Assembly: GCA_946541745.1 (NCBI GenBank)
Contig: CAMNJY010000008.1
Location: forward strand, 1-33,454
Direction of reading: 5' to 3'
Length of the DNA stretch: 33,454 bases
Source of the DNA: an uncultured Prevotellaceae bacterium
Lineage (GTDB): Bacteria > Bacteroidota > Bacteroidia > Bacteroidales > Bacteroidaceae
In this document: in pieces, positions 4,538 to 8,246 of the stretch
Layout of the letters: every line of letters starts with the position of its first letter
How positions within the stretch are numbered: position 1 is the stretch's first letter
Made by a program: the position numbers and the translations under genes
Notes under the pieces: generated by a model
Database searches by the model: none
What the model saw: only the letters and a program-made list of their open reading frames with translations
Told to the model about the DNA's origin: nothing

Positions 4538-6982
4538 ATGAAAACGAAGCATTACATTTACGCAGCCTTGGCAATCACGGCATTGGCCAGCTGCTCCAGC
4601 GATGACTTCATCGCTGAGGCCCCGCCCGTTGAGACGACGGACACCATGGCCCCCATCATGTTCAGTTCGCTGAAGAACAACTTCACCCGCGCCGACCTCA
4701 CGGGCAAGGAGGCTGCCGAGAAACTCGGCAACAAGTTCGTGGTCAGCGGTTACAAAGGCTCAAAAACTGCTTGGGAAGACGGCAAAAGTAGCCTCGTGTT
4801 CGACAACTACCTCGTAGAGTACGCCGAGAACACCGCCAACACCACCGAGTCGAACTCCGCTAACTGGGAGTACGTGGGCAAAGCACCTATCCAGCACGCC
4901 ACTGACAACGGCATCGTCGCCCAGACCATCAAGTACTGGGACTACTCGCAGCCGCAGTATGACTTTATTGCATGGGCTATGGGTACCTACGATGACAACG
5001 GTACCAAAAAAACTGTTACGCCTATCTACTCAGGCACACCTGAGTCTGGCAAAGTGCTTGTTTCTGAAATTGACACAAAGAGCGCAACAGGAGCGTCTGG
5101 TGCAGCCTACACATTCCAAGGGTCAGCTATTGACTTAGCCAACTGCTACATCTCTGACCTTGTAACAGTGGCGAAAGATGACTACCAGAAACCCGTCACA
5201 CTCAAATTCCGCCAGCTCGGCTCAAAGGTGCGTATGGGTATCTACGAGACGGTGCCCGGCTACTCCGTTAAGGATGTGCAATTCTATGCAGAGGCTGACA
5301 AGGCTCTTCCTACAGAATCGACAAAGCCTGTTCTTTTCACAACTACCGCCGGAGCGATTTACAATGAGGGTACATACACCATCTATTTCCCCACGGTTGA
5401 CACTCCCGCCGATGCTGACAACAACCAGGCCCACATCAAGTTCGATGGTAAAATCGGAGGCGTAGATAAAGATCAGAAAACGACCGTTGATTTTGGAGGG
5501 CTTAACTACACCATCGCCGAGAAGGGTGAGAAGACCGAAGGCAACGTGTTCCTCGGACGCACCTCTAACACCGCCTCTATGGCAGGACAGGCCCAAGGCA
5601 ACTACTACACCCAGTATCTGCCCAACGAGAGCGGTACCAACCTGAACCTCCGTGTGAACTACACGCTTGAGAGCATTGACGGCTCGGGCGAGACCATCAC
5701 CGTCAAGGGAGCCACCGCCCAGGTGCCCAGCATCTACACGCAGTGGAAGGCCGGCTACGCCTACACCTACCTCTTCAAAATCAGCGACAAGACCAACGGC
5801 TACACCGGTGTCTACGACCCCACCAAGCCCGATGACACCAGTGTCAACAGCGACCCCGCAGGCCTCTATCCCATCACCTTCGACGCCGTAGTAGTGAACG
5901 ACGAAGACAATGACAACACGCAGGAGACCATCACCCTTGTGTCAACACCCAGCATCACTACCTACCAGAAAGGCTCGAACGTGGTTAACAACAATGAGTA
6001 TATTGCTTCTACTGGTGATATCTACGTAACTGTAAACGACGGTAACACCGGCAATACACCCGACCTTGCCAACGGCAAACTGGTGAAATTCCAACCATCA
6101 GGCAATGGAATGGTAGCACTCTATCAAGTGGCAGAAGGAACAACCGAAGCACTTGTAAACGATGCGCTCCAAATTCGCGATGACGACACGAAGAATGGCA
6201 ATGTTGTTGGACGGAATGGATTGGAATTGGTGAAAACCGACAGTAAACCTGACAAGTTGACTTTAACAGACAAGGTTGAATACGGCGTTGACGGCAACGT
6301 TATCACCGTGGAAACAAATCAGGCTGCCAAGTTCACTCCACAGGCAGGTAAAACATACGCTTTTGTTTACTTCAAGACTATCAAGACAACCGCAAACGAC
6401 AAAGACATCTATCAGGCTCTTGCCTTTAACGAGTTCGCCACTGGTCAGACCAAGTACCGCTACGACTACAAGACTCCCGCCGCCACCGATGCTCAGAAGG
6501 GCGTGAAGTATTTCGCTTTGAATGGAGGAGTCTACACCATGCAGACCCCGTTCATCGGCCAGGGTGTTGGCAACCTGTACCTTGACGAACACGGCACCAC
6601 CATCGCCTCCGGCTATGCTAAAACGGGTACTACGTATTACTATACTACCGACAACGGTATGACCTACAAGGCTGCTAACAACATTGCCTACGCAGCCTTC
6701 GCTGATACCGAACTCTATACGTTCGACGGCACAAACTATACAGGCAAGACGGATACCACCCCTGTCAACGGCACCGCCTACTACCAGAAGACCACAGATG
6801 GTGAGGTTGAAGTCTACACCTACTGCGTCATCCTGCCCCAGCAGACCACCGACTGGTACGAGCTTGACACTACCAACTACGTCGAAGCCACCGAGACCGA
6901 AGCTGTGAATGGCCAGACCTACTTCGACAAATACACTAAGAACGACGGCGTGTACTACACCAAGATCATCAAGGTGCAGTAA
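4538..6982 (+). CDS. Fimbrillin family lipoprotein (814 aa), candidate major subunit
   Basis: N-terminus MKTKHYIYAALAITALASCSSDD (lipobox LASC), IMFSS...NFTRADLTG and WEYVGKAPIQ...QTIKYWDYSQPQYDFIAWA typical of fimbrillin-like proteins. Confidence 0.8.
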   Translation: MKTKHYIYAALAITALASCSSDDFIAEAPPVETTDTMAPIMFSSLKNNFTRADLTGKEAAEKLGNKFVVSGYKGSKTAWEDGKSSLVFDNYLVEYAENTANTTESNSANWEYVGKAPIQHATDNGIVAQTIKYWDYSQPQYDFIAWAMGTYDDNGTKKTVTPIYSGTPESGKVLVSEIDTKSATGASGAAYTFQGSAIDLANCYISDLVTVAKDDYQKPVTLKFRQLGSKVRMGIYETVPGYSVKDVQFYAEADKALPTESTKPVLFTTTAGAIYNEGTYTIYFPTVDTPADADNNQAHIKFDGKIGGVDKDQKTTVDFGGLNYTIAEKGEKTEGNVFLGRTSNTASMAGQAQGNYYTQYLPNESGTNLNLRVNYTLESIDGSGETITVKGATAQVPSIYTQWKAGYAYTYLFKISDKTNGYTGVYDPTKPDDTSVNSDPAGLYPITFDAVVVNDEDNDNTQETITLVSTPSITTYQKGSNVVNNNEYIASTGDIYVTVNDGNTGNTPDLANGKLVKFQPSGNGMVALYQVAEGTTEALVNDALQIRDDDTKNGNVVGRNGLELVKTDSKPDKLTLTDKVEYGVDGNVITVETNQAAKFTPQAGKTYAFVYFKTIKTTANDKDIYQALAFNEFATGQTKYRYDYKTPAATDAQKGVKYFALNGGVYTMQTPFIGQGVGNLYLDEHGTTIASGYAKTGTTYYYTTDNGMTYKAANNIAYAAFADTELYTFDGTNYTGKTDTTPVNGTAYYQKTTDGEVEVYTYCVILPQQTTDWYELDTTNYVEATETEAVNGQTYFDKYTKNDGVYYTKIIKVQ

Positions 6983-7030
6983 GCCCGCTGACCACAAAAG
7001 CTCGCTGGGGTTCGACTCCCCGGCGGGCTA
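6982..7030 (+). ncRNA. tRNA-minihelix-like structure: 7-bp acceptor-type stem plus T-arm, lacking D- and anticodon arms
   Basis: AGCCCGC (6982-6988) is the exact complement of GCGGGCT (7023-7029). Directly 5' of the latter is TGGGG-TTCGACT-CCCCG (7006-7022), a 5-bp stem with the canonical 7-nt T-loop. Linker is 17 nt; no encoded CCA (ACAA follows). Confidence 0.4.
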
Positions 7031-7046
7031 CAAACCAAAATATAAA

Positions 7047-7078
7047 GGTACGCGCAAAGAGGCCGGGCCTCGCGTGCC
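7047..7078 (+). other. Second intergenic stem-loop
   Basis: Outer GGTACGC (7047-7053)/GCGTGCC (7072-7078) with one wobble; inner GAGGC (7059-7063)/GCCTC (7067-7071). Confidence 0.5.
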
Positions 7079-7094
7079 GGAAAAGAAAAACAGA

Positions 7095-8246
7095 ATGGAC
7101 AATAAAGAGACCAAACGACAGCGCCCCACAGGAGGCGACAAGTGCTATGAGGCCAATAAGGGCAACAGACCCATGGGCCTCATTGCCCTTGCCGCCCTGT
7201 TCGCCCTCACGGCCTGCTCCGGCGAGCGCGCTGAGGAGGTGCCCCCTCAGCCGGTGCCCGCCGCGGTCCCCATCAGCTTCAGCAGCTCCTTGGCCGACGG
7301 CACCGAGGTGACCCGCAGCACGACACCGCTCGAGGCAACGGCCCAGACCTTCCACGTCTACGGCTACAAGAACATGAGCTACGGCGAAACGGCCGGCTAC
7401 GGCGACCTGCAGCAGGTGTTCCCGGGCTACCGGGTGAACTGGGTGGCGAACTCGGCCAACAGTTCTGCCACCAACAGCGACGGCTGGGAATACCTGGGCC
7501 AGCAGCCCGCCGGCCAGCAGGAACAGACCATCAAATACTGGGACTGGAGCGCCAGGGCCTACCGGTTTCTGGCCTTTGCCGAAGTGTCGGCCACCGGCAC
7601 GGTGACGGCCACCGCCGCGCCCACGGCCTGCAGGCTGACCTTCAGCGCCGACGCCACCACCCAAAGCGCCATCGACGACACCCCCTACTACAGCCGCCTG
7701 TGGTTCAGCACCGGCAATGCCGCCGACTATCCCGACCGGCCGTTCGGCAGGCCCGTGAAGCTCGTCTTCATGAAGCCCTACGCCAAGGTGCGCTACATGT
7801 TCACCTTTGCCGACCCCGCCGACGAAGCCATAGCGTCGCTCAGCCAGACAAGCTTCCGGCCCACTGACCTGGCCAGGACCATCAACCGCAAATCCACCGT
7901 CACCGTGGCCTACCCCCTCACGGGCACCGACACCCGCGAGCAATGGGCGCTGAGCGCCATCGACCAGGGAGCGGCCCTGACGGCGTTCACCGTCACCGGC
8001 GATTTCTACTATGTGCTGCCCGCCGCCGACCAGGGAACCTACACGGTGGCCGTCAGCGTCAACGGCACGGAGCAGACCGCCGTCGTGCCCGCCGAGTTCA
8101 TGAACTGGGAGCCGGGCTATGAGTACACCTACATCTTCAAAATCCTCGACGTCAGCGGGGGAGGCATCGTACTCGAGTCCGTGCAGGCCAGTTTCACCCC
8201 GTGGCAGGTGGTCGGCAACATGGAGCACGAAGTGTATAACTGGTAA
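7095..8246 (+). CDS. Fimbrillin family lipoprotein (second)
   Basis: Start at internal ATG 7095 (MDNKETKRQRP); lipobox ALTACSGE; shares WEYLGQQPAG...QTIKYWDWSARAYRFLAFA with the 4538 product. Confidence 0.75.
   Translation: MDNKETKRQRPTGGDKCYEANKGNRPMGLIALAALFALTACSGERAEEVPPQPVPAAVPISFSSSLADGTEVTRSTTPLEATAQTFHVYGYKNMSYGETAGYGDLQQVFPGYRVNWVANSANSSATNSDGWEYLGQQPAGQQEQTIKYWDWSARAYRFLAFAEVSATGTVTATAAPTACRLTFSADATTQSAIDDTPYYSRLWFSTGNAADYPDRPFGRPVKLVFMKPYAKVRYMFTFADPADEAIASLSQTSFRPTDLARTINRKSTVTVAYPLTGTDTREQWALSAIDQGAALTAFTVTGDFYYVLPAADQGTYTVAVSVNGTEQTAVVPAEFMNWEPGYEYTYIFKILDVSGGGIVLESVQASFTPWQVVGNMEHEVYNW

Follow-up and report, generated by a model that had tools for sequence, protein, structure and literature searches.

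Just behind the stop codon of a major fimbrillin-type gene lies a conserved hairpin which, as predicted, has exactly the geometry of a tRNA's coaxial acceptor (7 bp) and T (5 bp) arms, with the D and anticodon arms missing. The existence of this element is nearly certain, and comparison of its copies shows a sense-strand RNA hairpin under selection at operon junctions, mimicry of tRNA at the RNA level being likely. Our best model, to which we give a probability of about 0.5, is that of an acceptor/T-arm mimic with an N73-C74 tail, read by tRNA 3'-processing enzymes and forming or protecting the 3' end of the fimbrillin mRNA; the enzyme, the cleavage and the effect on stoichiometry are the parts that we infer.

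The window, that is, the whole stretch of DNA analysed, comprises 33,454 bases and is one complete contig of a 2.5 Mb, 62%-complete genome. It contains a fimbrillin-type operon in which a DUF3575 gene (2178) and a DUF5119 gene (3305) are followed by the gene for an 814-aa fimbrillin-type protein, by two accessory lipoprotein-type genes (7095 and 8262) and by giant ORFs of 4079 and 2683 codons. The 814-aa protein has no match in Pfam, although its counterparts L076 and L077 match Mfa_like_1, and its probable membership of the fimbrillin family is deduced from its operon position and from a C-terminus common to homologues. The product of the gene starting at 7095 is likewise without a Pfam match, and occupies what seems to be an accessory fimbrillin-type position. 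The TAA stop of the 814-aa gene (6980-6982) lies 16 nt 5' of the hairpin. An RNase Z gene is present in the window's own genome (288 bits, just below the curated cut-off). The features of the junction are collected in Table 1.

Table 1. Features of the fimbrillin junction, in window coordinates.
Feature	Position	Strand	Details
Major fimbrillin-type gene	4538..6982	+	814 aa, C-terminus ..DKYTKNDGVYYTKIIKVQ*
AGCCCGC, formerly proposed acceptor 5' arm	6982..6988	+	Alternative pairing, not conserved; overlaps TAA stop
N-1 = A, conserved	6998..6998	+	A in 56/62, C in 6/62 copies; native tRNA genes opposite (T in 28/45)
Minihelix hairpin	6999..7029	+	MFE fold; covariance-model match 60.8 bits; 59-sequence alignment, 11/12 covarying pairs
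Hairpin 5' strand, AGCTCGC-TGGGG	6999-7010	+	
T-type loop, TTCGACT	7011-7017	+	
Hairpin 3' strand, CCCCG-GCGGGCT	7018-7029	+	
A73 (discriminator-like) and C74, then AAACC...	7030..7031	+	Tail as in the clade's native tRNA genes
Second conserved hairpin	7047..7078	+	By fold; outer stem GGTACGCG.., inner GAGGC-CGG-GCCTC (CGG triloop); begins some 20-30 nt behind minihelix
Accessory gene, predicted lipoprotein	7095..8246	+	Start 65 nt 3' of hairpin

The predicted fold is an uninterrupted 12-bp hairpin (-24.4 kcal/mol), well outside what chance would give (fold z = -3.2) and composed of a 7-bp acceptor-like and a 5-bp T-like stem, in which AGCTCGC (6999-7005) pairs with GCGGGCT (7023-7029) through six Watson-Crick pairs and one U.G pair. 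The sequence-only reading had placed the acceptor 5' arm at 6982-6988, separated from the T-arm by a 17-nt linker. The letters it cited are present at those positions, and its T-arm, TGGGG-TTCGACT-CCCCG (7006-7022), and 3' acceptor strand GCGGGCT are confirmed. Its 5' arm is wrong, since the true partner AGCTCGC is the final 7 nt of the supposed linker, and therefore no linker exists. A fold using the distal arm reaches -19.3 kcal/mol, 5 kcal/mol weaker. Moreover, taking into account that such an arm within 60 nt is found in one of 62 unique copies, the window alone, when shuffled sequences lead one to expect a mean of 1.14, its presence is coincidental.

Conservation and covariation, the lack of which had been named beforehand as the refutation of this element, are both strong. 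A 151-base probe found matches in 17 other genomes of the genus, mostly over the hairpin, and the first 15 hairpins already contained compensatory changes at 10 of the 12 pairs. A first covariance model gave about 80 matches better than 1e-5, including many further congeners; most of its weaker matches, of about 36 nt, are probably ordinary tRNA genes. The second model was built from 59 sequences, in whose alignment two-sided changes occur at 11 of the 12 pairs and 98% of the cells are paired, with a covariation of 0.764 against 0.223 for shuffled and at most 0.128 for slid alignments. At E <= 1e-6 this model detected the element in 20 of the 350 family genomes, and it did so in 10 of the 30 genera drawn; outside the family, a genus from a different family of the same order also has the element. 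In all, about 60 distinct copies are distributed over the window's Prevotella-type genus, at least nine further genera of its family and a second family within the order. Since most congeners lack it (20/350 family genomes), the element is not essential for pilus operons. A global search over 85,462 species, made with a pattern blind to pairing in which C74 was demanded, returned 39 contigs, nearly all from Bacteroidales and nearly all adjoining fimbrillin genes. These belong mostly to ruminant or horse gut Prevotella, Bacteroidaceae and Ca. Minthosoma, the sole contig not of Bacteroidales type being a Pirellulaceae record (L140) with 10 of 12 pairs. The stem is free to vary across copies and the loop is fixed. 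Compensatory changes at 11 of 12 pairs alongside a fixed loop and C74 show ongoing selection.

The pairing also reveals on which strand the element acts. Among the 62 unique hairpins, the non-Watson-Crick cells comprise 35 G.U or U.G against 4 A.C or C.A, and at the four unconstrained positions of the 31 distinct hairpins from the pairing-blind pattern set, 102 of 124 cells are Watson-Crick, with 11 G.U against 3 A.C. This excess of G.U over A.C indicates that the element folds as sense RNA. In addition, 12-bp hairpins were enumerated on both strands regardless of loop sequence, in loci chosen for holding at least one such hairpin: the sense strand yielded 57 with a T[TG]CGACT loop against 9 with other 7-nt loops, and only 33 hairpins passed when the same loci were read on the opposite strand.

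No Rfam family reaches its gathering threshold within the window. In a cmscan of the hairpin region, mascRNA (RF01684) was the sole match up to E 1 (20.6 bits, E 0.048, gathering 42.5), and L011 scored 23.8 bits against the same family, also below gathering; an Rfam match to HOTAIR_2 is due to chance. ARAGORN predicted no tRNA in the window, and RF00005 gave no match at E <= 1 in the hairpin region. The hairpin has the 7-bp acceptor and 5-bp T stem of a tRNA with a TTCRANY loop, together with the 3' tail proper to the clade's tRNA genes (N73-C74, CCA not encoded). As for an intrinsic terminator, no terminator-like site was found on the + strand at 6800-7300 and the 3' flank is A-rich, so that, without a U-run, the hairpin is not one. 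Literature searches found no description of this element.

As a native reference, 45 distinct tRNA genes (L186-L235) of a complete congener genome (G346) were used. C74 is encoded in all 45 of them and in all 62 hairpins, although this invariance was partly favoured by the collection, since C was demanded by the pattern and is rewarded by the models; no such demand was made in collecting the first 15 copies. C75 is encoded in only 4 of the 45 native genes, and CCA is mostly not templated in Bacteroidetes tRNA genes (PMC5143459), so that C74 alone is the signature common to hairpins and tRNA genes. A73 occurs in 51/62 hairpins and 28/45 native genes, and positions N75-N76 are A/T-rich in both. 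Of eight single-base bulges (several from close relatives), seven coincide exactly with the 7/5 boundary between the acceptor and T stems, the point from which the remaining arms of a tRNA would emerge. The opposite is found on the 5' side: U or G is never present at -1 in the 62 hairpins, whereas U occupies it in 28/45 native genes, and G1 appears in 6/62 hairpins versus 36/45 native genes (Fisher P below 1e-13 for each contrast). Judged by this reference, the 3' determinants are shown to be tRNA-like and the 5' determinants non-tRNA. The loop TTCGACT is found in only one of the 45 native tRNA loops, that of tRNA-Glu(UUC), a rarity which hints at origin or at extra recognition; a congener tRNA-Glu reads AGGGGTTCGACTCCCCTACGCGCTACAAAAC. 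Four to five copies have a TGCGACT loop, with a G at position 55, which tRNAs avoid. None of the hairpins has a D-arm or anticodon arm, their helix being continuous with at most a 1-nt bulge at the junction.

With regard to placement, a long sense ORF ends upstream of 60 of the 62 copies, at a median distance of 29 nt (20 nt or less in 27), and the hairpin is almost always found in sense orientation in the intergenic space that follows a fimbrillin gene on its 3' side. These upstream ORFs are mostly fimbrillins: L076 and L077 match Mfa_like_1, and the rest were identified from C-terminal sequences like ..KVIKVQ. Where fimbrillin paralogues stand in tandem, every one of them is followed by its own copy (L099, L100, L101, L102), and a few copies follow genes for other surface or secreted proteins (L084, L087, L088, L091, L103). 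Cargo genes lying between fimbrillins also have copies before or after them, and include PIN toxin, HigB/HigA, AAA-ATPase-like/PDDEXK_9, Bro-N, 23S_rRNA_IVP, HepT/NTase and ORF6N genes. At five loci (L097, L095, L075, L108, L099) toxin-antitoxin and accessory genes are found inside fimbrillin operons, namely HigBA, PIN, HepT/NTase, a 23S_rRNA_IVP four-helix bundle, ORF6N and AAA-ATPase-like with PDDEXK_9.

A hairpin with a CGG triloop is found behind 26 of the 62 minihelices, mostly at 23-36 nt, with differing stems, and might serve to protect the downstream mRNA at its 5' end. This hairpin (GAGGC-CGG-GCCTC and variants) precedes the next gene and also occurs without a minihelix; copies were observed in the window and in L079, L093, L094, L099, L101, L102, L105, L106, L110, L111, L126, L137 and L149.

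A 940-bp module consisting of CGG palindrome, Bro-N gene and hairpin is 99.8% identical in L120 (822-2820, reverse-complement coordinates) and L138 (6330-7307), where it ends at palindrome and hairpin, and the flanking fimbrillins are diverged; we take it for a recent transfer of a gene with its own hairpin and palindrome. When used as a DNA probe across the family, the module retrieved ordinary Bro-N homologues only, at 65-77% identity, which say nothing about where exchange borders lie. In the pairs L137/L139 and L077/L118, fimbrillins are diverged up to the hairpin/palindrome region and similarity resumes in or after it. The borders of the modules lie between hairpin and palindrome, at no single fixed base. 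We read this as modular genes that would carry their own 5' and 3' RNA elements. In L095, L097 and L108 (reoriented strand), a repeat-like hairpin of 30-38 nt is inserted between TTC and GACT of the loop, and one further loop-insertion copy measures 79 nt in all. A similar repeat (..GCGAGCAAAGCTCGAGCGCGACTCC) stands alone 5' of other minihelix copies. Scanning of phage sequences gave one good copy (L154:10451-10527, IMGVR_UViG_3300037400_001574), the others looking like chance or prophage-like sequence. This copy follows a phage gene, shares the CTCTCTA 5' flank, and carries an outer stem of 11 bases, AATCTTTCTCT/AGAGAAAGATT, whose end lies immediately 5' of the next ATG.

According to our best model, the hairpin would fold in the polycistronic pilus mRNA just behind the major fimbrillin stop. 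There RNase Z would make or repair a protected 3' end, perhaps with CCA then being added to the helix that ends in C74. In this way the abundant fimbrillin message would become detached from the accessory genes and more stable than theirs, and the CGG-triloop hairpin, some 30 nt further on, would shield the new 5' end of the accessory message. RNase P would be avoided (A at -1, A1-U72), and the hairpin would stay on the fimbrillin mRNA. RNase Z is known to clamp the acceptor/T minihelix (human ELAC2, PMC11996679). However, the G19-C56 elbow makes an about 100-fold contribution to RNase Z binding (PMC4810234), and without a D-loop the hairpin has no such elbow, the loss of which should weaken binding. 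The loop TTCGACT, being stricter than tRNA enzymes need, also counts against this model. A more specific proposal, which we hold only tentatively, is that the D-arm-less minihelix serves as mRNA punctuation in Bacteroidales, pilin mRNA ending in a CCA terminus through RNase Z and CCA addition, which would set subunit stoichiometry.

Several other explanations have to be weighed. A strong hairpin immediately following the stop codon of the major pilin, with a variable stem, a fixed loop stricter than those of tRNAs, and no U-run that would make it an intrinsic terminator, might be an exonuclease-blocking 3' stem-loop whose T-like loop is the target of a different factor (an RNA or protein that binds T-loops, or modification enzymes of the TruB/TrmA type), and which tunes major and accessory mRNA without tRNA-end processing. 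We consider this unlikely, since it leaves unexplained the invariant C74, the A73 bias and the bulges at the 7/5 junction, all of which follow the rules of tRNA genes. Distinctly unlikely is a full excision in the manner of mascRNA, in which cuts by RNase P at the 5' side and RNase Z at the 3' side free a minihelix of about 33 nt and split the operon mRNA. Acceptor/T hairpins of the pATSer type are classic RNase P model substrates (PMC10465520) and mascRNA is the nearest Rfam family, but A or C at -1, never U, and the rarity of G1 are the opposite of native tRNA genes, and a cut at -1 would strip the 3' hairpin from the fimbrillin mRNA. For the same reasons (neither U nor G at -1; G1 in 6/62 against 36/45), the RNase P processing put forward in the sequence-only reading is not favoured. 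Its wider idea of a minihelix between major and accessory fimbrillins, perhaps with a role in mRNA processing, agrees well with the comparison of copies, in conservation, covariation, the 7/5 bulges and the 3' tail, whereas its 5' arm does not stand.

At the DNA level, the hairpin region could be an exchange site at which fimbrillin alleles and cargo (toxin-antitoxin pairs, Bro-N, AAA-ATPase/PDDEXK, 23S-IVP and HEPN/MNT genes) are shuffled as modules, as in integrons. The nearly identical Bro-N module amid diverged fimbrillins, the two further pairs in which similarity switches on at hairpin/palindrome and the cargo genes between hairpins agree with this. We nevertheless hold it to be improbable, given the sense-strand G.U bias of the pairing, the absence of a recombinase among the window genes tested, and borders that do not fall at one fixed base; diversifying selection with homologous recombination also yields sharp fimbrillin divergence. 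That the element lacks function, being a remnant of tRNA-Glu(UUC) or a dispersed repeat that arose from it, is extremely unlikely. Among the 45 native genes only this tRNA has TTCGACT, and the ..GACT/GCGCT-A-C 3' end is common to both, but the compensatory changes at 11/12 pairs around a fixed loop and C74 show ongoing selection. This refutes the absence of function only, an origin from tRNA-Glu being possible. A remnant of tRNA-targeted integration, the other suggestion made from the letters alone, is unsupported as the main explanation because many loci show covariation of the stems around a loop and a C74 that do not change.

If our best model is true, a kind of structure known chiefly from laboratory substrates, the acceptor/T-arm minihelix, would act naturally in bacterial mRNA, and it would offer a possible mechanism by which multi-fimbrillin pilus operons of Bacteroidales make more major than minor subunit. 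The comparison also exposes a clade-wide oddity, namely that tRNA genes retain C74 and not CCA.

Among known systems, pap-type intercistronic stem-loops behind major pilin genes are stabilising, and they share with this hairpin a position just behind the major pilin stop and an expected excess of major subunit. The hairpin differs from them in its fixed T-type loop, its tRNA 3' tail and its 7/5 geometry, and in belonging to Bacteroidales fimbrillin operons, a different pilus class. In integrons, attC sites in cassette arrays are hairpin-forming sites that separate exchangeable genes, often of the toxin-antitoxin kind, and the same arrangement is seen here; in contrast to attC, no conserved recombination core or integrase is apparent, the pairing bias points to RNA, and the module borders are not at one base. 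The mascRNA/menRNA family (RF01684), like the hairpin, is tRNA-like inside a longer transcript, with a 7-bp acceptor, a 5-bp T-arm and a canonical T loop. It keeps a reduced D-arm, is cut by RNase P and RNase Z and is CCA-tailed (PMC11693755), whereas the hairpin lacks a D-arm, has a continuous helix and anti-tRNA 5' determinants, and is bacterial and intercistronic. Finally, the pATSer-type RNase P model hairpins are, as this element is, acceptor/T-stem hairpins with a T loop (PMC10465520), but the element is natural and lies in mRNA, has mostly A at -1 and A1-U72, and ends in an NC tail without an encoded CCA.
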